This document shows positions 1,117 through 55,009 of a stretch of 64,000 nucleotides of DNA, one piece after another. The DNA is taken from positions 1 through 64,000 of the forward strand of contig WGNV01000010.1 of assembly GCA_016124375.1 (NCBI GenBank). Direction: 5' to 3'. Both the position numbers and the translations under genes were made by a program. This stretch comes from Tepidisphaera sp. GTDB taxonomy: Bacteria > Planctomycetota > Phycisphaerae > Phycisphaerales > UBA1924. How positions within the stretch are numbered: the stretch's first letter is position 1; every line of letters begins with the position of its first letter. The notes below the pieces were generated by a model, which was not told where the DNA came from, made no database searches, and worked only from the letters and a program-made list of their open reading frames with translations.

Positions 1117-1176
1117 TCGTGACTTGTTCCGCCGCTCACCACCCCGACCTACGGCAGCGGCGTCCTCACGCCCGCA

Positions 1177-2433: not shown

Positions 2434-2539
2434 GTGTGGCTCCTTCAAGGGGTTGGATGGGGAAGGGCCGGGGGAGGTGGGGAGGGGATCGCCACCAGCC
2501 GCCCGGCCCGCGGCGGGTCGCCGCGCTTCGGCTTCTATC

Positions 2540-2564
2540 TTGGAAAATCAACTGCATTTTCCAA
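2540..2564. promoter_or_regulatory. perfect inverted repeat, candidate operator
   Basis: TTGGAAAAT and ATTTTCCAA are separated by 7 bases in the AT-rich centre of the divergent region between the HAF-like protein gene and the winged-helix regulator. A dimeric ArsR-type regulator would be expected to bind such a dyad. The assignment is inference from position and symmetry. Confidence 0.5.
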
Positions 2565-2670
2565 TGATCAGAATAGCCCGAGGTTGAACTCGCGCCAAGT
2601 GAATTTGCACGAATTCCAACGTCCGATAGGTGCATTTCGGGGCCTCAAGGACGGATAGACTGCCCGCGAT

Positions 2671-3312: not shown

Positions 3313-3320
3313 CCTCGCGA

Positions 3321-4424: not shown

Positions 4425-4623
4425 GTGGACAGTTCCTCTGAAGGCGATCCGTGGGAAGTGAGCCCACCGATCGTGGACAACCAACGTGCTCCGCATAAAA
4501 GCGGACTATGTTGTCCATTTTAAGAGAGAGCTGCGTTTGTTCAAGGCGATTCGTGGTCGGGTAATCGAAAAATAACGCAATTGCCCATGATCCGTGGGCT
4601 TCCACATCGTGCGATCGAACGAA

Positions 4624-7026
4624 TCAGGGGCACTGGCCGCCGGCAATGACGTTGATGAGCGCATCGACGTCGCCCTGGTCGGCGACGCCGTCGTGGTTGA
4701 AGTCGGGGTCGATTCCGGTGGGGTTGCCGCCGCCGGCGATGGCGTTGACGAGGTAATCGACATCGCCCTGATCGGCGACGCCATCCTGGTTCACATCGGG
4801 CTCGCAGGCCGGGGCGATGGTGAACGAGATGGACCCGTTGCCGCCGGCCTGGCCGTCGCCGCTGGGCAGAGCGCCGGTGGTTTCGCCGTCGAGCGCCGCT
4901 CCACCCGTGACGCTGGTGATCTGCGAGCCGGTCCAGGCGAGCGTGTAGCTGCCGGCGGGCAGTGGGGCGGTGGGGGTCAGCGTCGCGGATTGTGAACCCG
5001 CGTTGTAGGCCAAGGTGAAGGGCACGCTGCCGCCGGGCCCGGAGAGCGTGAAGGCGCTGCCGGGGGCGTTGACGTTTTCACTGAACACCAGGCTGAGGCT
5101 GGCGGGGGCCGCGGTGAGTGCCGCGCCGGGTGCTGGGCTGGCGAGCGCCACCTTGGCGGGGCCGGCGGGATACGCGACAGCGGTCTTGCCGGTGGCGAGA
5201 ATCCAGTTGTTCGGGTCGAGCGAGGCGGTGCTGGCGCTCGCGGCCAGCGGCATCAGGAAGTACTGCGAGCGTGCGTTGTTCTGCACACTGATGGTCTGGC
5301 TGGAAGAGCCTTCGGTGACGACGACGTCGATGGGGAAGCGGAAGTAGCCGGCGGGGGCGCCCGCGCCGGGCCAGGTGGCGTCCTGGGTCTGCTCGATGTA
5401 TGCCTTGAGATAGGGCTGGCCCCCGATGGTGGCGGGCACAAAGGCGTAGTTGTACGCCGGAGCGCCGATGCCAAAGACGCACTGCTGGAAGAACCAGTTG
5501 AGGTCCTGTCCGCTGGTGGCGCTGCAGACGTTGGCGAAGTCCTGCGTGGTGGCGCCGCCTCCCTGGTAGAGCTGGCGATAGTCGTGCAGAATCTGGAAGA
5601 ATGTGCTGTCGCCCACGACGTGGCGGAGCTGATGCAGCGCCCAGCCGCCCTTGTCGTACGAGAAGTTGCCATCGAAGATGCGATTGACGTTGGTGACGTC
5701 GTAGCAGTAGACGCTGTCGTTGACGGCGCTGGGGCGTCGGGCGGCCATGGCCGCGAAGAGCGCCGGCAGCCCGCTCGACCCCGGCTTGCGTTCGGCCCAC
5801 AGCGCCTCGGTGTAGGTCGCGAAGCCCTCGTTAAGCCAGATGTCGTTCCAGTACTTGCAGGTGATGTTGTCGCCCCACCATTGGTGGCCCAGCTCGTGGG
5901 CGGTGACGGACTCCCAGAACCCGCCCTGGCCGGTGTAGGTCTGGTGTTCCTGGCCGCCTCCGAACTGGAACTCGTAGAGCCCGTACTTCTCGTTGACGAA
6001 CGGGTACTCGCCGTAGATCGGGCGGTAGGTGCTGAGCATGGTCAGGCACAGTTCCCAGGCGGCGCGATTGGCGGGGGTGTCGTCGGCGGGGTAGATGCTG
6101 AAGTGCACAGGCATGGTGCCGGTGCCGCCTCCCGCAAGCGGATAGGTGTACGTCTGCTGCCACTGGTTGTAGTTGGTGGCGGAGAACATGAACAGATACG
6201 GCGCGGTCTGGTAGTTGGTGCTCCAGGTGTACTTGGTCTTGCCCGGGGCGGGCGTGCTGGTGCCGGTGGGCAGACCGTTGGAGACGCCCTTGAGCGTGTC
6301 GGGCACGGTGATCGAGATCGTGCCCGTCGCCTTGTCGCCGTTGTCGCCGGGCAGGGCGAAATCGCCGTCCTTCACGGGCCACCACGTCGCGGCGTAGTAG
6401 GGCTCGCTCAGGCTCGCGGCGATCGGCGCCCCGTTCTGCGTGCCGATGTTGATCGATCCGAACCCGCGCGACACCGGCACGCCCGAGTAATCAATCTTGA
6501 CCGTGAACGTCTCGCCCATGTTGTACGGGCGGTCCAGCGTCACGGTGCGGCCGTAGCTGTTCGCCCCGGGCGTCGTCACGCTCGCGATGGTCCCGCCGTT
6601 GAGCGTTACTTTGTTCGTGTCCGCCGCCTGGCCCGAGAGGCCCCGCTGCACCAGGAAGTTGGAGCGGAGCATGAACGTGAACTGCGTGAGCCCGTTCACC
6701 AGCGACCGAACCTGCATGGTGTTGGAGCCGCTCAGCGAACCCGCGCCGAAGTCCACGTTCAGGTCGAGATTCACCGTCAGCAGGTCGGTGTCGCCCGGGG
6801 CCTCGCGGCTCTGGTAGCCCCCGCCGCCGCCGTTGGGCGATAGCCCTTCCTCGGCCAGCGTCCGCATCGCGTTGCACTTGCCGCAGCCGCAGATCGGTCG
6901 GGGCAGCGCCGCCTCATCCACGCCCGAGGCCGGGCGGAGCGAGAGCTGACCAAGGGCGGGCTGAACCAGAACCGAGCCGCTGGCCGCGATGATCGCGGCG
7001 ATCGAAACACTCAGGGACGAGCGCAT
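4624..7026 (-). CDS. secreted M1-family zinc metallopeptidase with Ig-like and dockerin-type domains
   Basis: Signal peptide at residues 1-26. An N-terminal CGCGKC cluster precedes a beta-sandwich (about 60-270) and the M1 catalytic domain. The zinc site is HELGH near residue 377, with the third ligand Glu in NEGFATY 18 residues on. The usual exopeptidase GAMEN motif is replaced by GGGQEHQT, typical of divergent M1 members. Residues about 640-735 form a bacterial Ig-like domain (LSLVFSENVNAPGSAFTLSG), followed by the dockerin-like tail ending GGQCP. It probably acts as an aminopeptidase on exported peptides at or outside the cell surface. GAGG precedes the ATG by 7 bases. Confidence 0.92.
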   Translation of the reverse strand: MRSSLSVSIAAIIAASGSVLVQPALGQLSLRPASGVDEAALPRPICGCGKCNAMRTLAEEGLSPNGGGGGYQSREAPGDTDLLTVNLDLNVDFGAGSLSGSNTMQVRSLVNGLTQFTFMLRSNFLVQRGLSGQAADTNKVTLNGGTIASVTTPGANSYGRTVTLDRPYNMGETFTVKIDYSGVPVSRGFGSINIGTQNGAPIAASLSEPYYAATWWPVKDGDFALPGDNGDKATGTISITVPDTLKGVSNGLPTGTSTPAPGKTKYTWSTNYQTAPYLFMFSATNYNQWQQTYTYPLAGGGTGTMPVHFSIYPADDTPANRAAWELCLTMLSTYRPIYGEYPFVNEKYGLYEFQFGGGQEHQTYTGQGGFWESVTAHELGHQWWGDNITCKYWNDIWLNEGFATYTEALWAERKPGSSGLPALFAAMAARRPSAVNDSVYCYDVTNVNRIFDGNFSYDKGGWALHQLRHVVGDSTFFQILHDYRQLYQGGGATTQDFANVCSATSGQDLNWFFQQCVFGIGAPAYNYAFVPATIGGQPYLKAYIEQTQDATWPGAGAPAGYFRFPIDVVVTEGSSSQTISVQNNARSQYFLMPLAASASTASLDPNNWILATGKTAVAYPAGPAKVALASPAPGAALTAAPASLSLVFSENVNAPGSAFTLSGPGGSVPFTLAYNAGSQSATLTPTAPLPAGSYTLAWTGSQITSVTGGAALDGETTGALPSGDGQAGGNGSISFTIAPACEPDVNQDGVADQGDVDYLVNAIAGGGNPTGIDPDFNHDGVADQGDVDALINVIAGGQCP

Positions 7027-7101
7027 GCATGTACCTCGCGATATTGCCGCGAAGCCGGCGCGGCCCCGGGGCGCTGAACGTGGAAACTGGCAAGAAGGAA
7101 T

Positions 7102-7132
7102 CGGCGGAGCCCGGCTTTCGCCCGGCCCGCCG
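7102..7132 (-). terminator. GC-rich imperfect hairpin after the M36 gene
   Basis: An outer stem CGGCGG/CCGCCG and an inner CCGG/CCGG pairing are followed on the minus strand by ATTCCTTCTT. It is placed 14 bases after the stop of the M36 peptidase gene. Confidence 0.55.
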
Positions 7133-7145
7133 CTGTCTCGAGTGC

Positions 7146-10100
7146 TTACGGGCAGGGCCCGCCGGCGACGACGTTGACGAGGGCGTCCACGTCGCCCTGA
7201 TCGGCCACGCCGTCTCCGTTGAAGTCCGCGTTGATGCCGGTCGGGTTGGCCCCGCCCGCCACCACGTTGATGAGGTAGTCCACGTCACCCTGATCGGCGA
7301 CGCCGTCCTGGTTCACGTCGGGGTCGCAGGTGGGCCCGGCGACGCACAGGCGGTCGGTGATCTTCAGGTCGTCGATGGCGGCCTCGACGATCGAGCCTCC
7401 CCCGATGTCCGCCGCGTTGAAGCGCAGACGCACCTGCGAGGTGGGCGTGAGACCCAGGTCGCGCAGCCGCCAGCTGCCCAGCGCCCAGGCGTTGGTGGCG
7501 GTGGCGATGTTCTCCGCCGTGTGCCAGGTGGCGCCGTTGTCGGTCGAGACCTGGATCAGGAACGTGTCGTCAATCACGGTGTTGCCGTTGTTGGCGTACC
7601 AGCGCCAGTATTCGACGATCGGATCGTTGGTCCCGGCCAGGTTGTACGCGGGGCTGGTGAGCACCGTGATGCCGTTGTCAACGTCGTTCTGACCGAGCAC
7701 GCCGGGGTTGCCGTCGGTCACCCAGCACTTGGTGCCGGGGTCTGGGGTGTGATCCGCGCCGGGCTGGATGGGCAGGCCGGCGCCGGTGTTGATGGCGGAG
7801 GGGGCCAGCCGGTTCCAGATACCGGTGGTGGCCGCGGGCGAGCCGGGCGTCACGGTCCAGCCCTGATCGGTCTCCATGTCGTCGCTGGCGGCGACGTTGG
7901 TTCCGGTGTAGATCTGGCCGGCGTAGGTGGCCGCCGGGGCCGTCGAGGGGCTGGTGAAGTTGCCCTGGTCGGTGCCGAACGAGACGTAGTAGCGGAAGGT
8001 CGAGAAGCACGGGGCCGCGGGGAGTGTGGCGTTGAAGTCGTTGGCGCCGGTCTGTGCCAGCGGCACGCTGGTGAATGCCCCGCCGTCGATGGAGTAGAAG
8101 AGCTGACCCGAGCCGGGCGTCACGTTGACGAAGACCGGGGCGATGTGCACCGGGAAGGTCGTGGCCTGCGTGGGCGAGAGCTGGGCGGGCGTGCCGTTCG
8201 GGAAGGTGTAATCGACGCGGAAGGGCAGGTCGAAGTTCTCGACGACGTCGGCGGTGCCGGTGCCGCTGCTGAAGGCGTTAGCGCCCATGCCCCGCTTGGC
8301 GAAGGCCCGCCACAGCGCCAACTGGTGGGCGCCCCCGTAGCGGTTCATGTCGGCCTGGAGGATCGCGTCGCGCTCCTGCAGGAAGTTGGGGCCGGCGGGT
8401 GCGAGCTTCATCCCGTCGATCACCAGCTGCAGCATGGTGTTGTTGCCCGAGAAGCCCTCGGTGAGGCTGATCTGGTATCGCCCTTCCAGCAGCGTGTTGC
8501 ACCAGATCTCGCCCACGTTGTGCACTTCGGTGGCGGAGTTGCCGATCACCGGGTTCCGCGGCGCCGAATAGGTCCGCACGGTGGTTGTATCGCCGTACAG
8601 CAGCGGGCTCTTGGTCAGGTCGATCGAGTACGGGTAGCGCCGGATCCCGTAGTAGGTGTTCAGGTTGCCTTCGCCACCCGGGTCACCCAGGTTGCGGGTC
8701 ACAAAGCTGCCGGTGCTGTAGACGGCACTGAAGTCGTCGGAAGGCTGGGCCAGCATGCTGATGCCCACGTAATCGCCCCAGCCCTCGCCCATGCCCCCGT
8801 TCTGCGTGCCGCTCTGAAGGCCCCCCTGCGGGCCGTGCAGGCGGATGGACGTCCCGTGGGTGAGCTCGTGGAAGACCACGTCGCCGTCCAGCGAGCCGTC
8901 GCGCTGCGGGGTCGGCGCGGTGAAGATGTACATCTGCACCCGGCCGGTGGAGCCGTCGGTGCCGGAGGTGCTGAAGTTGGCGTTGTTGGTGCCGCTGCCG
9001 TCCTGGCACTCGGCCCGCACATAGTCGCCCGCGAGGCCGCCCCGCCCGAGGTTGTCGAGCTGGAAGTTGCCCGCCGCCTCGTTGAAGCCCAGCGTCCAGA
9101 GGTGATCGTGGTAGAGGTTGCACAGGTAGAACAGTTGCGTGATCGACGCGTCGCGATAGGTCGAAGGGGCGGCGGTCGGCGCGTTGTCGGCGCCGGTGGG
9201 AAGGGCGAAGTCAAAGACGCGGGTGGCGCTGGTCGCCCGATCCGCGGGGCTGGCGGTGTTGTCGTTGGCCGCGTCCAGGTACGCATCGACGTTGTTGCCG
9301 ACCGTCTGCGTCCCGCCGTCGGGGATCCACCCGTTCGAATCGATCGCCGAGATGTCCGCCGGCTGCACCGTCACCAGATCGCGTGGCACAAACGGGAACT
9401 GCATGCCGCTGGGCGTGGGCGTGCCTGGCGAGGCGGGCGACGGGCTGTCGCTGGTGTACACCCGGTAGGTCACGGGCTGCGTGGTGTCCCACACCAGGTC
9501 GTCGAGCCGGTAGAGCATCTGGCCAGAGCCGGCGTCGACGATCACCTCGTAGTTGTGCCCGACGCCCCGCACGGGCACGAACACCCAGTACGCCGCCCGC
9601 ACATCACCGCGCGCCACGAAGTAGTACACCCGGCGCGTGCGCACGAGTTCGTCCGGTCGCAGCTCCAGGGGCGTCGTCCACTCCAGGTTGCCGTTGACGT
9701 CCTTGGTGCCTGCCGACTGCACTTCTCCCGCAAGGTCGATCCCGCAGGCCCGTGCCGCGGCTTTGATCGCCGCCTGCTCATTCAGTTCAAACTTGGTCGG
9801 GCTAAACCCCTCCGCCGGCTCGGGGAGGAAAGTGCCCCCGATGTTGATCAGGCGACCGTCGCTGTTCACGCTGGCGTTGAAGCGACCGTTCTCGACCGGC
9901 AGCCCGTTGATCTGCTGCTGCCAGGTCAGGTGCGTCATGTTGGCGCCGGGCGTCTCAAAGTTGCGGATCAGCACCGCTTTGTCCAGCCCCGCCGGCCCGA
10001 TCTCGAACAGCGCCGGGTTCCCCGCCAGGAACGCCTTCACGACGTCCGCCGGGGCGGCCTTGGATGGACCCGTCAGCCAGTCCGACGTCGCTCCCGCCCA

Positions 10101-10439
10101 GCTCACCGTTCCCAGCACCTGGTCGCGGTACGTCCGCATGCTCGGGATCGCGGCGTGCATCGCCGCCTCCGCCGCCGCCACGCCCCGTCCCCCGGCCGTC
10201 ATTTCCCACACCTGGCGTGCGTGCAGCACCGCGTCCGCCGGGGTTTCGTCGGCGTTCAGGCGAATGTCCACGTTCGCGAGGCCCGGCCCGTAATCAGCAA
10301 ACCGGTCAGCCGCCGGCATGGTGGCGTCGCCGTTCGCGCCCAGCGCCGCCGAGCCCAGCCCCAGCGCCCCGCCCGCCGCCAGCACAACCGCCAGCGCCCG
10401 CCAGCCGCCCGTCCGACCCTGCAAAGTATGCGATTTCAT
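7146..10439 (-). CDS. secreted M36 (fungalysin-like) metallopeptidase with dockerin-type domain
   Basis: A 1097-residue protein with a signal peptide ending near LGANG and a long propeptide-like region (about 40-320) of the FTP/PepSY type. The catalytic domain carries HELTHG near residue 525, and its third zinc ligand is the Glu of MGEGWGDYVG about 27 residues later, as in fungalysins. Residues about 720-800 and 840-1030 are beta-sandwich domains; the latter, with WTVTPGSPA and WHTAENIATATNAW, resembles a MAM or jelly-roll binding module. The tail has loops PDVNQDGVADQGD and ADFNGDGVADQGD and ends GGPCP. AAGGA lies just before the ATG. Expected to be an exported endopeptidase activated by propeptide removal. 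Confidence 0.92.
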   Translation of the reverse strand: MKSHTLQGRTGGWRALAVVLAAGGALGLGSAALGANGDATMPAADRFADYGPGLANVDIRLNADETPADAVLHARQVWEMTAGGRGVAAAEAAMHAAIPSMRTYRDQVLGTVSWAGATSDWLTGPSKAAPADVVKAFLAGNPALFEIGPAGLDKAVLIRNFETPGANMTHLTWQQQINGLPVENGRFNASVNSDGRLINIGGTFLPEPAEGFSPTKFELNEQAAIKAAARACGIDLAGEVQSAGTKDVNGNLEWTTPLELRPDELVRTRRVYYFVARGDVRAAYWVFVPVRGVGHNYEVIVDAGSGQMLYRLDDLVWDTTQPVTYRVYTSDSPSPASPGTPTPSGMQFPFVPRDLVTVQPADISAIDSNGWIPDGGTQTVGNNVDAYLDAANDNTASPADRATSATRVFDFALPTGADNAPTAAPSTYRDASITQLFYLCNLYHDHLWTLGFNEAAGNFQLDNLGRGGLAGDYVRAECQDGSGTNNANFSTSGTDGSTGRVQMYIFTAPTPQRDGSLDGDVVFHELTHGTSIRLHGPQGGLQSGTQNGGMGEGWGDYVGISMLAQPSDDFSAVYSTGSFVTRNLGDPGGEGNLNTYYGIRRYPYSIDLTKSPLLYGDTTTVRTYSAPRNPVIGNSATEVHNVGEIWCNTLLEGRYQISLTEGFSGNNTMLQLVIDGMKLAPAGPNFLQERDAILQADMNRYGGAHQLALWRAFAKRGMGANAFSSGTGTADVVENFDLPFRVDYTFPNGTPAQLSPTQATTFPVHIAPVFVNVTPGSGQLFYSIDGGAFTSVPLAQTGANDFNATLPAAPCFSTFRYYVSFGTDQGNFTSPSTAPAATYAGQIYTGTNVAASDDMETDQGWTVTPGSPAATTGIWNRLAPSAINTGAGLPIQPGADHTPDPGTKCWVTDGNPGVLGQNDVDNGITVLTSPAYNLAGTNDPIVEYWRWYANNGNTVIDDTFLIQVSTDNGATWHTAENIATATNAWALGSWRLRDLGLTPTSQVRLRFNAADIGGGSIVEAAIDDLKITDRLCVAGPTCDPDVNQDGVADQGDVDYLINVVAGGANPTGINADFNGDGVADQGDVDALVNVVAGGPCP

Positions 10440-10801
10440 GGTGGTTCCTTCGATAAACCCGGCCGCCCCGCAGGCCCAAGGCCCGCCCCGGCCCTCTTCG
10501 GTTCACTCCGTTCACATCCTGCCCGATGCCCGATAGTCTCCGCGTTCCGGACGCTCCCGTCCGAGGCGCCGGGTCAGCCACGGGTGCGACACAGCGCCCG
10601 CCCGCCCTTGCCAGCAAAAATCACAAGTCACGTATATCCGACGCCCGGCGTGATGCAAGAGATATTGCTCCAAATTCTCGGTTTCCGAGTCGCCCGGGCA
10701 TCCTCGGGCCCGGTCGCAGCGCCGTACAACGCCCGCGGCCTCGGGCAAGTGCCGAGGCCGCGGGGTATCGAGCAGGTTGTTCGCGCCCAGATCGGCGTCC
10801 G
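10440..10801. other. intergenic region upstream of the M36 gene
   Basis: About 360 bases without a supported gene. It contains the 3' hairpin of the neighbouring reprolysin-like gene (10732-10764) and an AT-richer stretch around 10617-10680 that is the likely minus-strand promoter region of the M36 gene. No recognisable sigma-70 boxes stand out. Confidence 0.6.
10732..10764 (-). terminator. strong 13-bp hairpin after the reprolysin-like gene
   Basis: CCCGCGGCCTCGG pairs perfectly with CCGAGGCCGCGGG across a 7-base loop, 38 bases beyond the stop. There is no proper T-run, so it may be an mRNA-stabilising 3' hairpin rather than a classical terminator. Confidence 0.6.
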
Positions 10802-13800
10802 TTACGGGCAGCCGCCGCCCGCGACCGCATTGACCAGCGCGTCGACGTCCGTCTGGTCAGCGACCCCGTCCTGGTTGAAGTCCGGATCGCGCCCCGAGGG
10901 GTTCGCCCCGCCGGCGATCACGTTGATCAGGTAGTCCACGTCGCCCTGGTCCACGGCTCCGTCCTGGTTGTAGTCCGGGTCGCAGGGCGAGCCGGCCGGC
11001 TGGCAGAAGCGGGCCTTCTGCGTCGTGATGATGAGCGAGAACGCCCGGACGTTGCCCGTGTCGCCGCCCGACAGGTCCTGCACCGACAGGGTCCACACCC
11101 CGTTCAGCAGGTTGCCCGAAAGGCTGCGGAAAGGCGAGAAGCTGGCGTTGGGCACGTAGTGATTGGAGAAAGGCGCATCTCCGGCCGTCACGTTCTGGAT
11201 CGAGAGGCCCGAAGCCGCATTGTCCTCCAGGTAGGTCGAACAGAAGTTGTTGCCCGAGTTATCGCCCCCCAGCGGGTTCTGGCTGGTGGGGGCGACATAG
11301 CCCGGACGATTCATGATGATCACGCTGCGTCCCTGCGTCAGGCCCGAAGTCGGGGAGGTCAGCGTCACCTGCAGATCGCTCACGTAGCTGTGCTCGATGC
11401 CCACCGTCGTCGCACCCTGCTGGGCGGTGCACAGGCTGCCATCGAAGCTCACCTTGACCGCCGTCACCGGGTCGGTCAGGCCCGAGACCGGGATATTGAT
11501 CGTCGCGGCCGGGCCGGGGAAGTCAGGGATCGGCACCGCCGGACCCCGGAAGCTGAAGACGTGATCGATGGGCAAAGGCAGCGTGCCGATCGGGAACGTG
11601 AAGGGCACGTTGGTCAGCGTTCCGCCCTGGTCAGAGGTCAGGGTCAGCCGCAGGTTGATCGTCCCGGTCGGGTTGCACGCAAAGTTGGGGCTGATCGAGA
11701 TGATGTAGGGCGTGAGGTTTACCTGGGGCGAGTTGGTCGCGAGATTGGGATAGAACGCCGTCGGGGTGGTGACGGTGACGCCCGACTGCACCGTGCTCAG
11801 CGTGCCCCGCACGTTGGTCCCGGTCAGCAGCCCGTTGTTGATCACCTGCACGTACACCGCGATGTTGTTCTCGCCCGGGTCGATGCCCCCGTTGCGGTTG
11901 CCGTTGGGCTCGTTGTCGCTGAAGGTATTGCTGCCGGTCAGGGCGAACGCCACGTTCTGCGGCGGGGCGACGATCCGGAAGTCCACGTCCGACTCGTCAA
12001 AGAAGATGTTGTTGATGCCCTCGATCTTGATGCGGGCATGGGTCGTCGGGGTCGTGTCCGCGGGGATCACCACGCTCGCGCTGCCCGTGTTGGGCACGCT
12101 GCTGGCCAGCACGATCGGGAACGTCGCCCCCGAGTCCAGCGAGAGCAGGATGCGAACGTTCAGGCAGCTCACCGGCGCGATGTCGGTGTTGGCCTTGTCC
12201 CAGGTGATGGTGTGCGTGCCGAACCACGAGACGTTCGTGTTGGGGGAGGTCACCCTGAACGGCCCGCTGGTGGGATCGACCACCAGGCGACGAGTCGCCC
12301 AGGCCGTCCCGCCGCCGCCCACGTGGTTGTCACGCACCACGCACCGGAAGTTGAGGCTGCGGCTCGACGCGGGCAGCACCTCGCCCACCGTCAGCATGTT
12401 GGTGCGGATGGCGTCGAGGTTGGGGATGGTTCGCGAAGGCGTGGTGGTGAAGGGGAAGACGCGGAACAGGGGCGAGGCGCCGTTGTCCGACAGGGGCAGG
12501 GGCACCGGCGCGCCGGTGTCGGTCTGCTCCCAGGAGAAGGTCAGGGCATCGCCATCCGAATCGCCGTAGGTGATCGGCGTGAGCGTGAAGGGGGTCTGCG
12601 AGGGGATGATGTACAGGCGCCCCGCGTCGGAGATGGTGGGGGCGTGGTTGCCGGTGAAGCTCTCGGTGTCGCACTGGGTGGTGGCGATGAAGGCGTTGAT
12701 GCGTTCGAGGGAGTTCTGGCCGAACATCACGTCGGAGTGGGGCTGCAGGTCGTCGGTGCCGCAAATCCCCGCGTAGCACATGATGGTGCTGCCCGAGCCG
12801 GGCTCGAAGGCCAGGGAGATATCGTCGCCGGGACCGCCGCCGCAGCTGTTGAAGTTGTGTCGTCCGTCGAACTGGTGGCCCATCTCGTGGGCGACGTAGT
12901 CGACCCAGAAGCTGTCGTTGATGGGCATGTCGATGCCGCTGAGCCCCTTGCCCTTGTTGTTGGTGGAGCACGGAGCGCGGAAGAAGGCGATGCCGCCCGG
13001 GCCGGTCTCAAAGACGTGCCCGACGTCGTAGGCCCCGTTGCCGACGCCCGAGTCGAGCTTGGACTGGTTGATGTCCCGGTCGCTCTGCGAGCCGTCGTTC
13101 GCGTACCCGTCGGTGACCGGGTTGGTGAAGATCACCAGGTTGTTGTTCGCGACCAGGATGAACCGCACGGCCACTTCGGTGTCGTACACCTCGTTGATGC
13201 GGTTCACCGCCGTCACCACCGCCGCCAGCCCGTCGGTCACGTTCACGCTGTGCCCGTTGAGCGTGCTGTGGAAGATGGTGTACTCGGCGGTCGTCGCCAC
13301 CGCGAGGCGATACTGGTGCCGCGTCACGAACTCGCCCGCCCGCTGCTCGTAGCCCCCCCCGCGGGTCTGGTTCTTGGGCGTCTCCGCCGGCACTTCGGGC
13401 TCGGGCTGCGGGTTCTCGTCCACCGCGTGGCAGACCCAGTTGGTCGTGCGGTGCAGGTCGCTCTTGAAATAGCTCACCACCGTGCTCAGGTCGCCCCCGT
13501 CGTAGGGATCAACGAACACATCCCCGTTGGCCGAGCGGATGAACGCGTGGAACCCCTGCGGGGTGTAATCGAACCGCACCGTCGCCGTCGGATCGTCGAT
13601 CCCCTGTCCCTGGTACGTCTTCATGTCCGGGAACTTGGCGGCCAGCCCCGGCTCCATCATGGGCGACTCCACCACGTTGAAGCGAGCCATCCACCCGTCG
13701 GGCATCGGCAGGCTCATCACGATCGGGGCCTGCGCCTGGGGCACCGCCTCCAAAGGGGCCGTCGCCAGAACGCCCTTGAGCACGTCCCAGTTGACCGTCG

Positions 13801-17757: not shown

Positions 17758-17849
17758 GACGCCGGACCTGAGCAAAGCGAAGGTCCGGGTGGATTCGGGT
17801 CGCTCGCGCACGCTTCACCCGGAGATTCGCTTCGCTCATCTCCGGCGTC
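17758..17849. repeat. REP family A, inverted pair (REPIN-like)
   Basis: Two hairpins face each other. The first is GACGCCGGACCTGAGC with its partner ending in AGGTCCGGG; the second starts CCCGGAGATTCGC and closes ATCTCCGGCGTC. The outer ends (GACGCCGG/CCGGCGTC) are mutually complementary. The same unit flanks the transposase gene at 20391-20936. The terminal TGA of this copy, read on the minus strand, is the stop codon of the neighbouring hypothetical gene. Confidence 0.85.
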
Positions 17850-18450: not shown

Positions 18451-18507
18451 GAGATTGGGTAGTTTCGGCATCCCGGCCCGCGACTGTTGGCCTTACCCTT
18501 GCCCACC

Positions 18508-20292
18508 ATGAGCGAACCGACCCTGCGCGAGAAGACCCAGACCATGCTGGCCGCCGAAGCGAAGATCCGCGTGGGTGGCGGCCAGAGCGCCATCGACCGC
18601 CAGCACGAAAAGGGCCGCCTGACGGCTCGCGAACGCGTCGAGAAGCTCATCGACCCCGGGTCGTTCTTCCAGGAACTCGGCCTGTGGGCGGCCCACGAGA
18701 TGTACAAGGAATACGGCGGCGCCCCCGCGGCTGGGGTCGTCACGGGCATCGGCGTCGTGCAAGGCCGCCGGTGCATGATCATCGCCAACGACGCGACCGT
18801 GAAGGCCGGGGCGTTTTTTCCGATGACGTGCAAGAAGATCATCCGGGCGCAGAGCGTGGCGATGATGGCCCGCTTGCCCCTGATCTATCTGGTGGATTCG
18901 GCGGGCGTCTTCTTGCCCCTGCAAGAGGACGTGTTTCCCGACACCGACGACTTCGGGCGGATCTTCCGCAATAACTCGGTGATCAGCGCCATGGGCATCC
19001 CGCAGATCGCGGCCATCATGGGCTACTGCGTCGCCGGGGGGGGCTACCTGCCCGTGCTGTGCGACACGCTGCTGATGACCGAAGGGAGCGGGCTGTACCT
19101 TGCAGGCCCGGCGCTGGTGAAGGCGGCCATCGGGCAGGAAGTGACCGACGAGGAACTCGGCGGGGCCAGCATGCACGCCAGCATCAGCGGGACGATTGAT
19201 TTCAAGGAGAAGGATGACGAGGCGTGCATTGTCCGCCTTCGGCGGCTCGTGGGCACCTACGAGTTGCGACGGTCACAAAAGATTGAGATCGCGACACAAA
19301 CGGCTAAGAAGGAGATGCTCGAGCAGTTCGCGCCGAGGGTGAAGGCGGCTGCTTCTAACTTGGGCGTGGATACTTCTGGTGACTTTGGGGTGTCGCTCCC
19401 GCGTGCTGCTGCCGCGGCTGCTAACACCGTGTACGAGGTGTTCACTGATCGACCGGGCACGCAGTACGACGTTCGCGATGTCATTGGCGCTGTAGTTGAT
19501 TCCATGCCAGATCTCAAGAGCGGCTTCTTCGACGAGTACAAGTCCGACTACGGCCAATCGCTTGTGTGTGGCTACGCCACCATCGGTGGGCACGCCTGCG
19601 GCATCGTCGCCAACCAGAAAAAACTTGTGCAGCGCACCATGGCTTCGGTAGGTCGGCACTCCGTGCCGACAGACGGCTCGGAGAGCCGTCCTACCAAGCA
19701 GGTGCAGATGCCCGGAGTCATCTACGACGACAGCGCCGACAAAGCCGCCCGGTTCATCATGGATTGCAACCAGCGGAAGATTCCGATCGTGTTCCTGCAC
19801 GACACCACCGGCTTCATGGTCGGGCGCGACAGCGAGCAAGGCGGCATCATCCGCGCTGGGGCCAAGATGGTGAACGCCATGAGTAACTGCGTCGTGCCCA
19901 AGATCGTCGTCATCATGGGGGGCAGTTACGGCGCCGGCAACTACGCGATGTGCGGGCGGGCCTTCGACCAGTTCATGGCGTTCGCATGGCCCAGCGCCAA
20001 GTGCGCCGTGATGGGCGCCAATCAGGCGACGGGCGTGCTGACGACGATCGAAGAAGCGAGCCGCAAGAGGAAGGGCGAGACGATCGACGAGGCGTCGCAC
20101 GAGAAGATCTACTCGGCGATCCACGCGGCGTACACGCAGCAGGCGGCGATCACGCACGCGGCTTCGAGGGGATGGATCGATCGCATGATCGAGCCCCACA
20201 AGACCCGCGAGGAACTCATCGCGGCCCTCGACGCGGCCAACCAGGGTTGGGACTACTCGCAGGAGTTCAAGACGGGCGTGTTGCAGACCTGA
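18508..20292 (+). CDS. acyl-CoA carboxylase, carboxyltransferase (beta) subunit
   Basis: A 594-residue crotonase-fold carboxyltransferase of the propionyl-/methylcrotonyl-CoA carboxylase beta type. The N-half includes KGRLTARERVEKLIDPGSF and YCVAGGGYLPVLCD; the C-half has GFMVGRDSEQGGIIRAGAKM, GGSYGAGNYAMCGRAFDQF and MGANQATGVL. It moves a carboxyl group from carboxybiotin to an acyl-CoA. The biotin-carrying alpha subunit is not adjacent. Two oddities: residues about 250-330 are longer than usual and use a different codon mix, and a 49-base palindromic element is inserted in frame near residue 380-396 (GRHSVPTDGSESRPT). No Shine-Dalgarno precedes the ATG. An upstream TTG is less likely. Confidence 0.9.
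   Translation: MSEPTLREKTQTMLAAEAKIRVGGGQSAIDRQHEKGRLTARERVEKLIDPGSFFQELGLWAAHEMYKEYGGAPAAGVVTGIGVVQGRRCMIIANDATVKAGAFFPMTCKKIIRAQSVAMMARLPLIYLVDSAGVFLPLQEDVFPDTDDFGRIFRNNSVISAMGIPQIAAIMGYCVAGGGYLPVLCDTLLMTEGSGLYLAGPALVKAAIGQEVTDEELGGASMHASISGTIDFKEKDDEACIVRLRRLVGTYELRRSQKIEIATQTAKKEMLEQFAPRVKAAASNLGVDTSGDFGVSLPRAAAAAANTVYEVFTDRPGTQYDVRDVIGAVVDSMPDLKSGFFDEYKSDYGQSLVCGYATIGGHACGIVANQKKLVQRTMASVGRHSVPTDGSESRPTKQVQMPGVIYDDSADKAARFIMDCNQRKIPIVFLHDTTGFMVGRDSEQGGIIRAGAKMVNAMSNCVVPKIVVIMGGSYGAGNYAMCGRAFDQFMAFAWPSAKCAVMGANQATGVLTTIEEASRKRKGETIDEASHEKIYSAIHAAYTQQAAITHAASRGWIDRMIEPHKTREELIAALDAANQGWDYSQEFKTGVLQT
19647..19695. repeat. palindromic element inserted inside the carboxylase gene (family E)
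   Basis: Cloverleaf-like: an outer stem GGTAGG/CCTACC encloses two hairpins, TCGGCAC-TCC-GTGCCGA and ACGGCT-CGGAG-AGCCGT. It is read through in frame and adds about 16 residues. The second hairpin core recurs inside trmB at 31724-31740. Confidence 0.8.
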
Positions 20293-20303: not shown

Positions 20304-21010
20304 GACGCCGGAGGTGAGCGAAGCGAACCTCCGGGTTCGTTCGGTCAAACGCGCCTATGACCCGGAGGTTCGCCCTGCTCACCTCCGGCGTCAGGTGGGG
20401 TCGCCCGACTCTGCCCTGCGACACGTTGGATGTACCCAAACGAAGGCGCCTTCGTCCGCATGTTCCGCGATGTACCGGATGAGCGTGTGGTAGTGCTCAT
20501 CTGAAAACACTCGCACCAGATGACAGCCGTGGGCCCAGAGCCCACCTTGGAGCCATGAGCGAGCGTCCAGGGACGCTCGCTGCTTTGCCAACCCGATCAC
20601 GGGCTTGGCATCCCGTTGGCCGACCCGCACCATCAAATGAACGTGCGTCGCGTTCACCGCCAGAATGCGGACTGGGTGGCCCAACTCGTCAAGTTTGCTC
20701 ACGAGCGAGCCGGCAACCGCCTGCCTGTGCTCTGGCGGAAGCCCGATCTTGGATTTCACGGCTCGTCGCGACCGATCCAGCAACCCGGCGTGCTCGCCTG
20801 CGGGCGGGGGCGATTTGTAATCTCCCGAGGAGTGAACTCGATGTCCGTGGTCGCGAAAGCCGCGAGGATCGCCCGGAAGCCAGGTGCCGTAGGTGGTGAT
20901 GATCGCGTGAACCCAGTCGGCCCAAGTGTGGGGCATTCGAGGATCATCGCGGGCGCGTGTACTGGTTGCAAGTTCAATCCGGAGGTTCGCTTCGCTCACC
21001 TCCGGCGTCA
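20304..21010. mobile_element. RAYT transposase gene flanked by REP family A (REPtron-like unit)
   Basis: The left boundary is an inverted REP pair (20304-20393: GACGCCGGAGGTGAGC ... CACCTCCGGCGTC). The right boundary is a single REP (20979-21010: CCGGAGGTTCGC ... CACCTCCGGCGTC). Between them lies one single-domain HUH transposase on the minus strand. Non-autonomous copies of the same REP lie at 17758-17849, 30961-31064 and 54930-55009. This is the standard arrangement of REP-associated tyrosine transposases. Confidence 0.8.
20391..20936 (-). CDS. REP-associated tyrosine transposase (RAYT, Y1/HUH family)
   Basis: 181 residues from an ATG chosen because ITTYGTWLPGDPRGF, the usual N-terminal signature of this group, follows directly at residues 12-26. 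No Shine-Dalgarno is evident. HUH metal-binding motif HVH at residues 98-100 (in NATHVHLMV), and a candidate catalytic tyrosine Y155 in IRYIAEHADEG. Such enzymes nick REP hairpins as single strands and move or copy them. The stop codon TGA is supplied by the terminal TGACGCC of the flanking REP. The gene looks intact. It is not part of the adjacent carboxylase operon, from which it is convergent. Confidence 0.85.
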   Translation of the reverse strand: MPHTWADWVHAIITTYGTWLPGDPRGFRDHGHRVHSSGDYKSPPPAGEHAGLLDRSRRAVKSKIGLPPEHRQAVAGSLVSKLDELGHPVRILAVNATHVHLMVRVGQRDAKPVIGLAKQRASLDARSWLQGGLWAHGCHLVRVFSDEHYHTLIRYIAEHADEGAFVWVHPTCRRAESGDPT

Positions 21011-21040
21011 AATACAAACGCCCTCCCAAGTGGGAGGGCG
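21011..21040 (-). terminator. intrinsic terminator of the cyclophilin gene
   Basis: CGCCCTCCC and GGGAGGGCG pair across a 4-base loop. On the minus strand TTTGTATT follows. It directly abuts the REP at 20979-21010. Confidence 0.85.
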
Positions 21041-21070: not shown

Positions 21071-21808
21071 CTACTTAGAAGGCTTCTCGGGCGCTTTCGC
21101 GTCCTTGAGCTTCGCCGCGTCTGCATCGCTCAGCTTGCTGACCTTCTCGATCGTCACGGTCTCGACGGGCACATCGCTGGGGAAGGGGCCCTTGGCGCTG
21201 GTCTTGACGCTCTTGATGGCGTCGACGACGTCGAACCCGGCGACGACCTTGCCGAAGACGGCGTACGCCGCGCCGTCGCGGGGCTGGTCGAGGAACGTGT
21301 TGTCCTGCACGTTGATGAAGAACTGGCTGGTGGCCGAGTCGGCGACGTTGGTGCGGGCCATTGCCAGGGTGTATTTCTGGTTCTTGAGCCCGTTCTTCCA
21401 TTCGTTCTTGATCGGGGCGTCGGTGTTCTTCTGCTTGAGGTCGGGCGTGAAGCCGCCCCCCTGGATCATGAAGTTGCCGATGACCCGGTGGAAGACGGTG
21501 CCGTCATAGAAGCCCTTCTCGACGTAGTGCATGAAGTTCTTCACGCTGATGGGGGCCTTTTCTTCGTCGAGTTGCAGAACGATGTCGCCCAGGGCCTTGT
21601 CGCCCTGTTTGATGTGCATGTTCACGTACACGTATTTCTCCTTGGCGGGGGCGTTGTGGTCGGCGGGCGCGTCTTTGGGGGTTTGGGCCTTGGGCTCGTC
21701 CTTCTTGGGTTCGGTCGTCGGCTGAGCGGCCAGCGAGACCGCCGCGCCCGCGACGAGAACCACGCCGCCCAGTAGCACGCCCAGTGTCCGCATGGTGGTG
21801 ATGCGCAT
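21071..21808 (-). CDS. exported peptidyl-prolyl cis-trans isomerase, cyclophilin type
   Basis: The start at this ATG is set by GGGAG five bases upstream. The signal peptide (residues 1-28) is followed by a charged Pro/Lys-rich linker and a cyclophilin domain (about 60-225). Active-site elements are seen: FHRVIGNFMIQGGG (Arg of FHR), MARTNVADSATSQFFINV and FGKVVAGFDVVDAI. It ends in a Lys/Ala-rich charged tail. It should speed proline isomerisation in proteins folding in the periplasm, fitting a genome that exports many large proteins. Divergent from the M16 peptidase gene. Confidence 0.93.
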   Translation of the reverse strand: MRITTMRTLGVLLGGVVLVAGAAVSLAAQPTTEPKKDEPKAQTPKDAPADHNAPAKEKYVYVNMHIKQGDKALGDIVLQLDEEKAPISVKNFMHYVEKGFYDGTVFHRVIGNFMIQGGGFTPDLKQKNTDAPIKNEWKNGLKNQKYTLAMARTNVADSATSQFFINVQDNTFLDQPRDGAAYAVFGKVVAGFDVVDAIKSVKTSAKGPFPSDVPVETVTIEKVSKLSDADAAKLKDAKAPEKPSK

Positions 21809-22046
21809 CGATGCTCCCTCGAATGAGGACCACGGGGCAAGGCCTTGGATACGGGGACGGCCAACGGTCCTCTGCGGCGGCCGGCCCAACCAGTAAGTTC
21901 TGATGATAGGACGCGGCAATCCTCGCGTGGTTCAAAGAACCACCACCCACGCTGTCTGGGCCGACATTCCCGGACTGCGGGTTCTATCCTTCTCCCTCGG
22001 CCGTCCGGTGCGCAGGGTGACGCACTCCGGCCCTTTGGAGCCGCTC

Positions 22047-30960: not shown

Positions 30961-31064
30961 GACGCCGGACCTGAGCAGAGCGAAGGTCCGGGTGCGTGCC
31001 GCAGGGTCGCGCACGAGACGCCCGCGCCGAGATCCGGAGGTCCATGTCGCTCACCTCCCGCGTC
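30961..31064. repeat. REP family A, inverted pair, second arm decayed
   Basis: The first hairpin is intact (GACGCCGGACCTGAGC ... AGGTCCGGG). The second (CCGGAGGTCCATG ... CACCTCCCGCGTC) has mismatches, indicating an older copy. It lies between the divergent aminotransferase and trmB genes. Confidence 0.75.
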
Positions 31065-31956: not shown

Positions 31957-31999
31957 GTCATTCCCTAGTGCCCAGTGCCTGATGCCTAGTGCCTCTTCC

Positions 32000-34609
32000 T
32001 TACGGACACGCCCCGCCCGCGATCACGTTGATCAGCGCGTCCACGTCCCCCTGATCCGCTACGCCGTCGTTGTTGAAATCGGCGTTGGCGTTATTCGGGT
32101 TCTCGCCGCCGGCGATCACGTTGATCAGGTAATCCACATCGCCCTGGTCCGCCACGCCGTCCTGGTTCACATCCGGGTCGCACGCGGGCGCGCACGCCGG
32201 GTCGCCCGCCGCCCGCACACTGAGCGTGGCCGGCTCGCTCGTGGCGATGCCGCAGGCGTTGGTCACCACACAGTGATACATCGCGGCATCGGTCTCCTGC
32301 ACATCGTTCAACACCAGCGTGGCGGTCGCCGCCGACGGGTTCACACTCGTGTCGATGTCGCTGCCGTCTTTTCGCCATTGATATGTGCAGGCGCTCGTGC
32401 TGATGACTCCCACAGCGATGGTGGCGCCTGCGGGGCCCGGACACGCGGCCACATTCATCGGTTGCGCCAATATCTCCGGCGGCCCGGGCATCCGCCTCGC
32501 AAAGTTGTGACTGCTGAGCCCCGCAAAGGTCGTGAAGGCCCCGCCAACATACAAGTTTGCATCCTGAGTGGACAGAACGGCATACGTGAGGTTATAAGGG
32601 TCGGGTGCCACCAACTGAGACCAGGTGTCTGTGACCGTCGAGTAGTAGCTGATTGTGCCCGACGCGTAAGTTCCGGTGATGATGTCTCCACTCGGCAGCA
32701 ACGTCAGAGTTTGTGCATTCGGAGATGTTGCACCGAGCTTGCGCCATGTACCAGTCCCAAACGAGTAGCAGGACATTCCAGCGAGGCTTGGCAAAGTACT
32801 CGACACCGCGAGATCGCCGTTTGCCAGTTGGCCCATGGCAAGTACGGTCGACGGCCGCCCCGCTCCGAGCGCTTCCCATTCCGCCGTCTGCGGCGAATAC
32901 ACCGCGATGTGGTTGACGATCAGGGTGTCCACCCGGGTGAAGCTGCCGCCAACCACCAAGCGCCCATCCCGCAAAACACAAATCGAAGTCACCTGCCCGT
33001 CGATTGCGCCAAGCGACGTCCACGTCTGCGAATCAAGGTCATATGCGGCCAGGTTTGTCGCCGAGGTACCGCCCGCATGTGCAAACGAACCCCCGGCGTA
33101 TACCACTCGCGAAGGGCTCACGCCGAGCGCCATTACCGTGCCATCAACGCCCGCCCCAAGCGGTATCCAGACTTGGGCATCGTGGAGATACATTGCGATC
33201 CGAGAAGCCGGCGCGCCCCCTGCACTTTGAAACGCGCCGCCGGCAACCACATCGCCATTCTGGGTCACGGCTGCTGCGTACACGCCTCCATCCATGCCCG
33301 CGCCCATGGTCCTCCAGATATTGAACTCAGGATCAAAGCGAGCGACACGGTTCGCGCCCATCCCGCCGACCGAATTGAAATCTCCCCCTGCAAAAATCTC
33401 GCCGCTCGGTAGTTCGGCGAGGCATCGCACGGCCAGCGTTACCCCACACGTGGGCCCCATCCAAGTATTGGTGAGGTGCGAGAATCTGCCGACATTCTGA
33501 GCAAACCCATAGTTGATGACAGTAAAATTGCCACCTGCGACAATGTCGCCGTTCGGTTGCGTGTCAAAGCCGTAGATCGTTGGGGCCGATCCTGAAGGGG
33601 AGGTCAATGCTGACCAAGTCTGGTTAGCAACCGAAAATCTCGCCATGCCGCGAATTGACACCGGTCCTGCGCTGCCAAGAAGGCCGCCAACCACATAATC
33701 GTTGTGAATGTCGAGCGAAACATGGTAAATCGAGCCCGACAAGCCGCCCCCCACAATCGCCCAGCTATCGCTCTCGGGCGACCACAGGGCAACGCCAAAT
33801 ATGGTCCCAGCCGAAACGTTGAAGTACCCTTGCAGTCCCACAAGGATCTTCCCATCTGGCGTCTCAGCAAGGCTGAGCAGGTCATGTGCGCCCGCTGAAG
33901 TTGGGATCCACGTTCCAGAGGCTGGGACGAACCTAGCGACTCCACGCCCGACCATGCCGTTCACGTGGTCAAAGTTCCCGCCCACGACGAGATCCCCGTT
34001 GGAACGTACCAGTACCGCGTTGACTACGCCATTCACGCCCCCGGCCAGCGCCCTCCATGTGTCGGTGGAGGGCGAGTACACCGCCACATGCGCCGCGGGT
34101 ACGCCGCCCACCGTCACAAACGATCCCCCCACCAGGACATCTCCGTCGGGGAGACTGGCAACGGAGTACACGGTTCCATTCACTGCCCCGCCTACTGCCG
34201 CCCACGCATCGCTCGCCGGGTCATACATCCACAGCGAGTTCACGGCGCCCGCGACCAGTCTGCCGTTTGACAGCCGCGCCAGCGAATACACGTTTGCCGC
34301 GACACCCGCGCCCATGCTCGACCACGTGTTGGTCGCCGAATGAAACCGGAGAACGTGTGGCGCGGCGGGAATCATGCCCGAACTGGTAAAAAACCCACCA
34401 ACGACGAAGTCCCCATCGGGCAGGGCGAGGACCGCGCGGACGTCATAGTTGAGGCTCGGCAATGCGGAAATGTTTTCCCACGCGCCCCCGCACTGCGCCC
34501 CGGCTCTCAACGGCATGCACATGCCGAACAACAATGTACTCAGCGCCGCCACCAGCCTCAGATAGCCCACGCCACCCGCACCCTCACCACCATCGCATCG
34601 ACGAATCAT
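32000..34609 (-). CDS. large secreted propeller-like repeat protein with Ig and dockerin-type domains
   Basis: The second of two close ATGs is chosen because GGGGAG stands six bases before it and directly abuts the first. 869 residues with a signal peptide ending near LRAGAQ. About 14 repeats of 45-50 residues follow, patterned TVYSVASLPDGDVLVGGSF then VAVYSPSTDTWRALGAG. They are kelch/delta-60-like and should build one or two beta-propellers. Residues about 700-790 form an Ig-like domain (CTYQWRKDGSDI, MYHCVVTNACG). The tail loops are PDVNQDGVADQGD and ADFNNDGVADQGD. The repeat region is clearly less GC-rich than the Ig/dockerin end. Likely an adhesion or binding protein. Confidence 0.88.
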   Translation of the reverse strand: MIRRCDGGEGAGGVGYLRLVAALSTLLFGMCMPLRAGAQCGGAWENISALPSLNYDVRAVLALPDGDFVVGGFFTSSGMIPAAPHVLRFHSATNTWSSMGAGVAANVYSLARLSNGRLVAGAVNSLWMYDPASDAWAAVGGAVNGTVYSVASLPDGDVLVGGSFVTVGGVPAAHVAVYSPSTDTWRALAGGVNGVVNAVLVRSNGDLVVGGNFDHVNGMVGRGVARFVPASGTWIPTSAGAHDLLSLAETPDGKILVGLQGYFNVSAGTIFGVALWSPESDSWAIVGGGLSGSIYHVSLDIHNDYVVGGLLGSAGPVSIRGMARFSVANQTWSALTSPSGSAPTIYGFDTQPNGDIVAGGNFTVINYGFAQNVGRFSHLTNTWMGPTCGVTLAVRCLAELPSGEIFAGGDFNSVGGMGANRVARFDPEFNIWRTMGAGMDGGVYAAAVTQNGDVVAGGAFQSAGGAPASRIAMYLHDAQVWIPLGAGVDGTVMALGVSPSRVVYAGGSFAHAGGTSATNLAAYDLDSQTWTSLGAIDGQVTSICVLRDGRLVVGGSFTRVDTLIVNHIAVYSPQTAEWEALGAGRPSTVLAMGQLANGDLAVSSTLPSLAGMSCYSFGTGTWRKLGATSPNAQTLTLLPSGDIITGTYASGTISYYSTVTDTWSQLVAPDPYNLTYAVLSTQDANLYVGGAFTTFAGLSSHNFARRMPGPPEILAQPMNVAACPGPAGATIAVGVISTSACTYQWRKDGSDIDTSVNPSAATATLVLNDVQETDAAMYHCVVTNACGIATSEPATLSVRAAGDPACAPACDPDVNQDGVADQGDVDYLINVIAGGENPNNANADFNNDGVADQGDVDALINVIAGGACP

Positions 34610-34727
34610 CGTCATCTCCCCGCGGCCACCGCCTCGTCAGCCAGGGTGTCGCCGCGCCGCTCGCATTGTGAATCTGTCGCCGCCAAGTTGAATGCAAGCG
34701 TATTGAACCATGCCCTTGTCGGCAATC

Positions 34728-34745
34728 GAATATATTATAAATTCC
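34728..34745 (-). promoter_or_regulatory. AT-rich candidate promoter element
   Basis: Minus strand reads GGAATTTATAATATATTC, containing a TATAAT-like box about 120 bases before the propeller-like gene. No convincing -35 at ideal spacing. Confidence 0.35.
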
Positions 34746-34987
34746 AGGTGCGCAAGGAAATCTGCAAGGTCGCGAAGATCAAAGCGTGCTCACCAAATGC
34801 AAACCCTCGCCGCGGCAATCACGCGAGGCGTCCGAAAAAACCCAGGGCAATCGCTCGCCATCGTCCGCGTCCGTTCTTCTCATCGCGCCCGACTCGCCGC
34901 CCCGCGAAATCCCTGCTCGCCCCCGCCAGCTTCCTCGCGGCCCCGCAAATCCCGCAATCCGTCCTACCAACGTCACCCTGGCCGCGC

Positions 34988-35020
34988 AAAGAAAAGGCCC
35001 CCCGGAATCTCCGAGAGGCC
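34988..35020 (-). terminator. intrinsic terminator
   Basis: On the minus strand GGCCTCTCGGAG and CCGGGGGGCC form an imperfect hairpin followed by TTTTCTTT, about 100 bases past the stop of the dockerin gene ending at 35114. Confidence 0.75.
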
Positions 35021-35113
35021 GAGTCTGCTGGTCGCTGAGCGAGCTCACTGCACGCACGCCCGCACCGTGAACTTTTCACCAGTGCCCGGTGCACGGTCTC
35101 CCGCGCCACTGCC

Positions 35114-45406: not shown

Positions 45407-45544
45407 AGCGACGAAGCGACGAAGTGGCAAAGTGGCAAAGTGGCAGAGTGGCACTTAGGAAGCCGCGACGCTAGAGCGTCGCGGGACTCTTGATTTCCGA
45501 AAGTCCGGAACTCCGGAACTCCGGAACTCCGGAACTCCGGAACT
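45405..45544. repeat. two arrays of 8-base tandem repeats around a hairpin
   Basis: The first array, from the trpE stop codon (45405-45453), has units GAAGCGAC twice then AAGTGGCA-type units four times. The second (45505-45544) is exactly five copies of CCGGAACT. Between them is a perfect hairpin CCGCGACGCT/AGCGTCGCGG (45463-45484). Confidence 0.9.
45463..45484. terminator. 10-bp perfect hairpin after trpE
   Basis: CCGCGACGCT-AG-AGCGTCGCGG without a T-run. It may terminate trpE or be another dispersed palindrome. Confidence 0.5.
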
Positions 45545-45625
45545 TCTTCTTCCCGAACTCCGTCTCTTCGTCTCTCCGGAACTTCGTCTCTTCTTCCCCC
45601 GCTTCCTCCCCTACCCTCCCTTCCT

Positions 45626-54929: not shown

Positions 54930-55009
54930 GACGCCGGACCTGAGTCTGCGAAGGTCCGGGTTTAACACCCACATCACCCGGAACTTCGCAAAGCCTCAGT
55001 TCCGGCGTC
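54930..55009. repeat. REP family A, inverted pair
   Basis: GACGCCGGACCTGAG ... AGGTCCGGG and CCCGGAACTTCGC ... AGTTCCGGCGTC. A diverged core marks it as a separate lineage from the RAYT-flanking copies. Confidence 0.8.

Follow-up and report, generated by a model that had tools for sequence, protein, structure and literature searches.

Within a stretch of 64,000 nucleotides from Tepidisphaera sp. (contig WGNV01000010.1; hereafter the window), a gene for an HUH/tyrosine transposase of 181 amino acids is bracketed on both sides by exact copies of a short palindromic REP. The locus raises the question of whether the gene and these repeats belong together as a REPtron or are neighbors of separate origin. 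On the evidence assembled here, it is very probable that they form a REPtron, composed of a TnpA_REP/RAYT transposase from a divergent and mainly planctomycete family together with a REP family of its own. A preliminary description of this DNA had proposed a RAYT flanked by its own REPs and accompanied by dispersed REPINs. The flanking copies are borne out exactly, and the wider proposal is supported by the fold, profile and catalytic residues of the protein, by repeat counts and by the comparison of insertion sites.

Along the RAYT gene, the order of elements is REP, RAYT, REP and inverted REP, with the feet of the outer copies directed outward (Table 1). The two outermost REPs are identical across all 31 nt and sit within an inverted repeat of 35 nt that is 97% complementary, and the copy directly downstream of the gene has the sequence of the upstream copy with three changes in the loop. 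The TGA stop codon of the RAYT overlaps the foot of this downstream REP (T+GACG). A longer frame with a TTG start runs through the upstream REP and is unneeded, as the listed ATG is the likely start. Judged from sequence, the neighboring ORFs are probably carboxyltransferase-like on the left and peptidyl-prolyl isomerase-like on the right. The C-terminal part of the former has a match in 23 of 30 relatives searched (E 1e-40). Inside this gene, a different palindromic repeat lies in frame at 19647-19695, where the gene is 10 codons longer than in five relatives. A RAYT of the same family also occurs in another genus (L241, on contig C3 of G014), where it follows the same carboxyltransferase-like gene at a distance of approximately 370 bases and in the opposite orientation, a position that reflects either a shared hot spot or chance. 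Repeats of other kinds are present elsewhere in the window, namely 8-nt units (TCCGGAAC) repeated in a short tandem array at 45504-45550, and a 239-nt segment found seven times within 1138-11001 and 31961-35313, the six others being 66-91% alike to the reference copy.

Table 1. Positions of the RAYT locus, its neighbors and the REPINs in the window (A, b and c denote REP loop types).
Feature	Position	Strand	Remarks
REPIN A-A	17758..17849		pair 17758/17819, spacer 30
Left neighbor, presumed carboxyltransferase-like ORF	18487..20292	+	
Candidate REPtron unit, REP-RAYT-REP-iREP	20304..21009		G003 (nearest relative) lacks the whole block
Inverted REP type A, outer end of RAYT unit	20304..20334	+	REPIN with 20362-20392
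REP type A, directly downstream of RAYT	20362..20392	-	gene's own orientation
RAYT gene	20391..20936	-	181 aa; ATG at 20936; stop TGA at 20391-20393
REP type A, upstream of RAYT	20979..21009	-	tail AT in place of GT
Terminator-like hairpin	21019..21040		G003 counterpart on right side of insertion site
Right neighbor, presumed peptidyl-prolyl isomerase-like ORF	21071..21919	-	syntenic in G003
REPIN A-A, right arm (31034) decayed	30961..31064		pair 30961/31034
REPIN b-c	54930..55009		pair 54930/54978, spacer 18 nt; other REPIN subfamily

The transposase itself carries the residues expected of its class, with H98 and H100 in an HVH stretch (98-100) and Y155 within the motif Y155-I-A-E-H. Searched alone, the protein has no significant match in Pfam and reaches only E 0.022 against the NCBIfam model REP_Tyr_transpos (14.7 bits, cut-off 80). 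The family is more readily recognized. An alignment of 71 proteins was built from the window protein and 70 of 80 relatives, eight being excluded because of internal stops or their length, and L098 and L158 being omitted as well. At E 0.01, 48 of these proteins match REP_Tyr_transpos, 39 match Y1_Tnp and 14 match transpos_IS200. Among solved structures, the family profile finds E. coli TnpA_REP (4er8) first (E 1.1e-4), with the HxH and Y residues in register. An AF2 model of the window protein (pLDDT 91.2) likewise has 4er8 as its top Foldseek match (E 2.2e-4, TM 0.48/0.52), and VIA-align scores 4er8 at Z 11.4 over 128 residues with the C-terminal part included; fifteen IS200-type entries are near-ties (Z 11.5-12.6 over approximately 100 residues). 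H98, H100, W134 and Y155 are present in all 71 proteins. Taken together, the predicted fold, the profile and the catalytic residues place the window protein with TnpA_REP/RAYT in the broad sense.

Two further positions of the protein depart from the E. coli enzyme. The residue four places after the tyrosine (position 159) is histidine in 60 and glutamine in 8 of the 71 proteins, giving the family motif YIxxH, and in the profile alignment it faces an asparagine of TnpA_REP in 4er8. N119 of TnpA_REP and Q131 of IS608 are named essential for transposition in vivo by Quentin et al. (2018, PMC6006769), from which we infer that this histidine may act as a metal ligand. The residue after W134 is alanine in 40 proteins, including the window protein (A135), glycine in 23 and glutamine in 5; in E. 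coli TnpA_REP, the corresponding Q95 contacts the GTAG foot, according to the same paper.

The REPs of the window follow the plan GACG-stem-[GAG...CGA]-stem-GT, and their hairpin carries a tandem G.A mismatch. The upstream copy at 20979-21009 reads GACG-CCGGAGGT-GAGCGAAGCGA-ACCTCCGG, and the classical GTAG foot is absent. A genome-wide count of this family had been suggested as a check in the preliminary description. The genome to which the window belongs (G000; 3,107,992 bases in 16 contigs, 76% complete) contains 80 exact copies of an extended pattern with free loop length, and the 31-mer itself matches 32 times when up to 3 mismatches are allowed; the reversed-pattern control gave 0 in both cases. 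Three main loop types occur between TGAG and CGAA, with 5 nt in type A (e.g. CGAAG), 4 nt in type b (e.g. TCTT) and 6 nt in type c (e.g. GCTCTG), and two copies have a loop of 7 nt. Of the 80 copies, 77 are complementary at both free stem pairs, with several pair types, as are 40 of the 43 distinct sequences; counted singly, 157 of 160 pairs are complementary, as against a shuffle mean of 65 and maximum of 89. Complementary changes of this kind are the signature of a structure maintained through paired substitution, albeit among copies related by descent. Folded as DNA, the type A REP of the window adopts a stem of 8 bp, followed by a two-by-two internal loop (G.A, A.G) and topped by a short hairpin at the apex. 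The stem is unchanged in the examples of types b and c, whose heads are looser. Very few shuffled versions fold as well as the single REPs.

The dinucleotide GT follows the hairpin in 86 of 96 REPs. The notion that this GT is read by the foot was dropped, as relatives with other feet also carry GT or AT tails. REPs were also considered as suppliers of stop codons, through a T preceding GACG; a T stands at -1 in 51 of the 96, and a gene-like frame is closed in only 3. As a general rule the idea was therefore rejected; it is true of the RAYT itself, though the frame rule missed that gene.

Pairs of REPs were scored in the window and 54 further loci of the same genome, allowing up to 5 mismatches. 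All 35 pairs found have their feet directed outward; they comprise 21 b-c, 10 A-A and 4 A-c pairs and no b-b or c-c. The b-c spacer is exactly 18 nt in 12 of 21 pairs, and A-A spacers range from 25 to 56 nt (n = 10). A-A and b-c pairs make up two REPIN subfamilies. Fixed partners fit the copying of each pair as a unit, with movement as the implied step; shared descent of the REPINs also explains them. The preliminary description had placed the same REP unit in inverted pairs at 17758, 30961 and 54930, and spoke of intact and decayed copies. All three pairs were found, and the right arm at 31034 is indeed decayed, but the pair at 54930 consists of loop types b and c and not type A. Neither the departure from a GTAG foot nor the existence of two REPIN subfamilies figures in that description. 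No b or c REP adjoins the one RAYT of the genome, though b-c REPINs are the commonest.

The two arms of a REPIN tend to differ from each other. Only 2 of the 35 pairs have the same stem in both arms, against 7.8 expected by random re-pairing (P 0.0024), and 199 of 200 random re-pairings give a stronger arm-arm duplex than the real pairs do. Complementarity between arms is below random re-pairing within the A-A pairs alone as well (P 0.03-0.05); a test of head length across all pairs was not significant (P 0.38). It was considered that heterodimeric arms might favor two separate hairpins. Since one long hairpin is the minimum-energy fold in 31 of the 35 REPINs, this claim is not made, and only a weakening of arm pairing is supported. 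A heterodimer preference is noted for other REP families, with protection from clearance offered as a possible reason, by Di Nocera et al. (PMC3733652).

A relative of the same genus allows occupied and empty sites to be compared. G003 (71% complete) is the nearest relative at the left neighbor gene (93% identity), and its interval between the carboxyltransferase-like and isomerase-like genes is approximately 100 bp, compared with approximately 780 bp in the window. When the window flanks are joined, they align with G003 across a terminator-like hairpin of similar plan, leaving approximately 700 bp missing at a joint that is inexact to the base. At the site matching 17758, G003 carries no REP, and a different palindrome occupies the place of the REPIN; at the site matching 30961 its interval is approximately 100 nt shorter, again with no REP; both gaps are without base-by-base alignment. 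In G003, b-c pairs similar to that at 54930 are embedded in a longer repeat bounded by terminal inverted repeats (GGCACAGGCG...). This repeat is seen at L269 and L270 of G003 and at approximately 54889-55050 of the window, where its left end is kept; it is a nested element. In two other genomes of the genus, G002 and G004, the 1.5 kb that follow the carboxyltransferase-like gene hold neither the RAYT nor the isomerase-like gene, so that these genomes do not decide between gain and loss. Gain of the RAYT unit in the window lineage, rather than loss in G003, is the simpler reading. That G003 lacks the unit and two of the REPINs at the corresponding positions marks changes since divergence, and the RAYT-REP system shows signs of spread since the split from this relative. 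The preliminary description had spoken of continuing activity; the changes since divergence, seen against one same-genus relative, agree with it in part, but present mobility is not supported.

Across 81 genomes (that of the window and 80 near it), matches to the RAYT occur in 40 at E 1e-3 and in 31 at 1e-12, the latter being termed strong. The 9 further genomes with matches up to 1e-3 include four with class 3-like genes (G004, G021, G022, G032), G003 with a fragment, and four left unclassed (G009, G074, G078, G079). At least five REPs, a threshold of our choosing, are found in 13 of the 81 genomes with the ACG pattern and in 3 others with the AAG pattern; reversed-pattern controls across the 81 gave 4 and 3 single matches, respectively. 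Twelve of the 31 strong-RAYT genomes reach this threshold, as against 4 of the 50 others (Fisher P 0.0012, kinship ignored). Within the genus, REP number differs, with 85 in G000, 8 in G003, 1 each in G002, G005 and G006, and 0 in G001 and G004. G003 itself has only an N-terminal RAYT fragment of another branch, along with a class 3-like gene.

The preliminary description had held that REPs in relatives without a RAYT would speak against it, and to a degree such relatives exist: in G013 (83 REPs), G017 (61) and G036 (39), not even a profile search found a RAYT of this family. G013 has a class 3-like gene without a GAG..CGA hairpin beside it, and G017 has other Y1 genes. Later loss of the RAYT or gaps in these MAGs would explain its absence, and E. 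coli likewise offers RAYT-less genomes that carry REPs (PMC8049555). Many REPs among those listed for G013 and G036 have the same stem, with a T.G pair in it.

In the genome contigs scanned, 279 relatives of the window protein were detected, and 80 of them were kept. The records of 76 name planctomycetes and that of L111 names only a "bacterium"; the remaining three, L083 (Cyanobacteria), L116 (Vicinamibacteraceae) and L140 (Nealsonbacteria), may be misplaced MAGs. No earlier description of this protein family was seen in a search of open-access papers on RAYTs and planctomycetes. Under a strict rule, a hairpin with a GAG..CGA head lies within 400 nt of 19 of the 81 family genes (39 hairpins in 63 kb of near sequence and 6 in 279 kb of far sequence). 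A relaxed rule raises this to 26 (58 near, 10 far) and does not find the head at 55 of the 81 loci. Many other family loci have plain perfect hairpins, and at some none was found. By an independent rule, a hairpin common to both flanks occurs at 40 of the 81 loci, compared with a mean of 0.69 and a maximum of 3 for mismatched flanks; no such hairpin was found at the other 41 under the thresholds used. Feet under the strict rule are GACG, CACG, TACG, AACG, CAAG, GAAG, TAAG and AAAG, with ACGC or CGCT at two loci, and GTAG at none. On the family tree, the GAG..CGA label is scattered yet clustered, requiring 15 changes against a shuffled mean of 22.5 (0 of 500 shuffles as low). This is a quick tree with SH-aLRT support only, from which L084 and L149 were left out; rows longer than 230 aa were cut to 190, and five rows carry X at inner stops. 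At L088, L087, L094 and L101, the GAG..CGA motif is nested or extended within one loop of the REP hairpins.

Several other explanations bear on these observations. REPs might be retained as transcription terminators or RNA hairpins beside which the RAYT is an unrelated neighbor, as their superior folding relative to shuffles and their occurrence in genomes lacking a family RAYT would allow. This is highly improbable, given that exact REP copies flank the RAYT on either side and that family loci with a hairpin common to both flanks are in excess (40 of 81 against a mean of 0.69). The unpaired GACG foot and GT tail are also kept, the asymmetric GAG..CGA loop is unneeded in a terminator, and REP number varies within the genus from 85 to 0-8. 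A better case can be made for reading the RAYT unit as an ordinary insertion sequence of the IS200/IS605 type and the REPINs as its deleted derivatives (MITEs). The unit is missing as one block in G003, its outer REPs are identical, its outward ends are those of the REPINs, and its fold is common to the IS200 enzymes that head the VIA list. Nevertheless, there is one full-length gene copy (in a genome 76% complete) to 80 exact REP copies, TnpA_REP is the best match by both profile and Foldseek, and the ends are inverted REPs rather than distinct left and right ends, all of which make this explanation unlikely.

The class 3 TnpA_Y1 group is described by Quentin et al. (2018, PMC6006769) as residing mainly in Planctomycetes, with a Y----Q motif and atypical hairpins with a CnGA foot. 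The window protein resembles this planctomycete-rich group in phylum, in length and in an N-terminal TxGTWLxGDxRG stretch, and has atypical flanking hairpins of its own. That it is simply a member is nonetheless quite improbable, for its motif is YIxxH and its foot GACG. Class 3-like proteins, identified by motif, occur in the same genomes as the family, and eight of them group together in the quick tree (one clade, SH-aLRT 100), with 79 family rows outside it, a separation that rests on look-alike proteins from nearby genomes rather than published class 3 sequences. Around class 3-like and other Y1 genes, no GAG..CGA hairpin was found at any of 17 loci; among 12 further scanned loci, one of which is shared with the 17, the only exception is L193 of G000, where it stands approximately 750 nt from the gene. 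Judged by these sequences, class 3-like TnpA_Y1 would be the nearest described group, separate from the family. One class 3-like gene of the window's genome (L186; G000, contig C8, 2301-2762) has Cys at the expected catalytic Tyr and is probably inactive.

Under the favored reading as a REPtron, the enzyme would bind a REP on single-stranded DNA through its GACG foot and tandem G.A mismatch. Y155 would then cut next to the hairpin, with H98, H100 and probably H159 holding a metal, and rejoining of the ends could allow REPINs, and possibly the RAYT unit itself, to be copied or moved to new sites. A bolder proposal, which we hold to be possible though doubtful, is that this is a large and distinct Planctomycetota RAYT family with a different code (an xAMG foot, a tandem G.A mismatch and a third-histidine ligand) whose REP-RAYT-REP unit transposes autonomously. 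RAYTs are described as single-copy, vertically inherited genes that copy REPINs and not themselves (PMC8049555); if true, autonomous transposition would set this family apart from such domesticated RAYTs. An occupied and an empty site, a foot unlike the classical one, and REPs of bulged as well as perfect form make the family suited to asking in what way REP recognition changes and whether a RAYT can still move itself.

Among known repeat systems, one point of contact is with the CGTC-tagged REPs, whose tag reportedly stands 5' of the hairpin. The REPs of the window are not filed with them; GACG is 5' here, so that the orientation looks mirrored, and a RAYT is flanked. The same four letters do occur on the complementary strand, and no transposase was found adjoining CGTC-tagged REPs according to Di Nocera et al. 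(2013, PMC3733652), in contrast to the RAYT flanked by GACG REPs here. The REPINs or BIMEs of Pseudomonas and E. coli share two inverted REPs, a variable spacer and common heterodimers with those of the window (PMC3733652, PMC8049555); those described here differ in foot and loop code and in their two subfamilies, with spacers of 25-56 nt (A-A) and mostly 18 nt (b-c).

The closest parallel is E. coli TnpA_REP/RAYT (group 2, subclass 2.2; PDB 4er8), with which the system shares the HUH-Tyr fold, a gene beside its own REPs, hairpins with a conserved in-stem mismatch, and inverted REP pairs. The differences lie in recognition. The foot is GACG, and mostly xACG or xAAG in relatives, instead of GTAG; the stem mismatch is a tandem G.A instead of AA-GC; alanine, glycine or glutamine (40, 23 and 5 of 71) follows the conserved tryptophan instead of glutamine; and Y+4 is histidine or glutamine (60 and 8 of 71) instead of asparagine. 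Similarly, in place of the GT[AG]G foot of class 2 TnpA_REP and the W-Q pair by which that foot is read, GACG and W134-A135 are found. E. coli and other REPtrons cut REPs strand-specifically with a GTAG foot, and the stem mismatch is required in the E. coli REPtron (PMC8266576). As foot and mismatch differ, the residue after the tryptophan is mostly not glutamine and the plan is otherwise the same, we infer by analogy that the same chemistry as in E. coli REPtrons may operate here with a changed recognition code.
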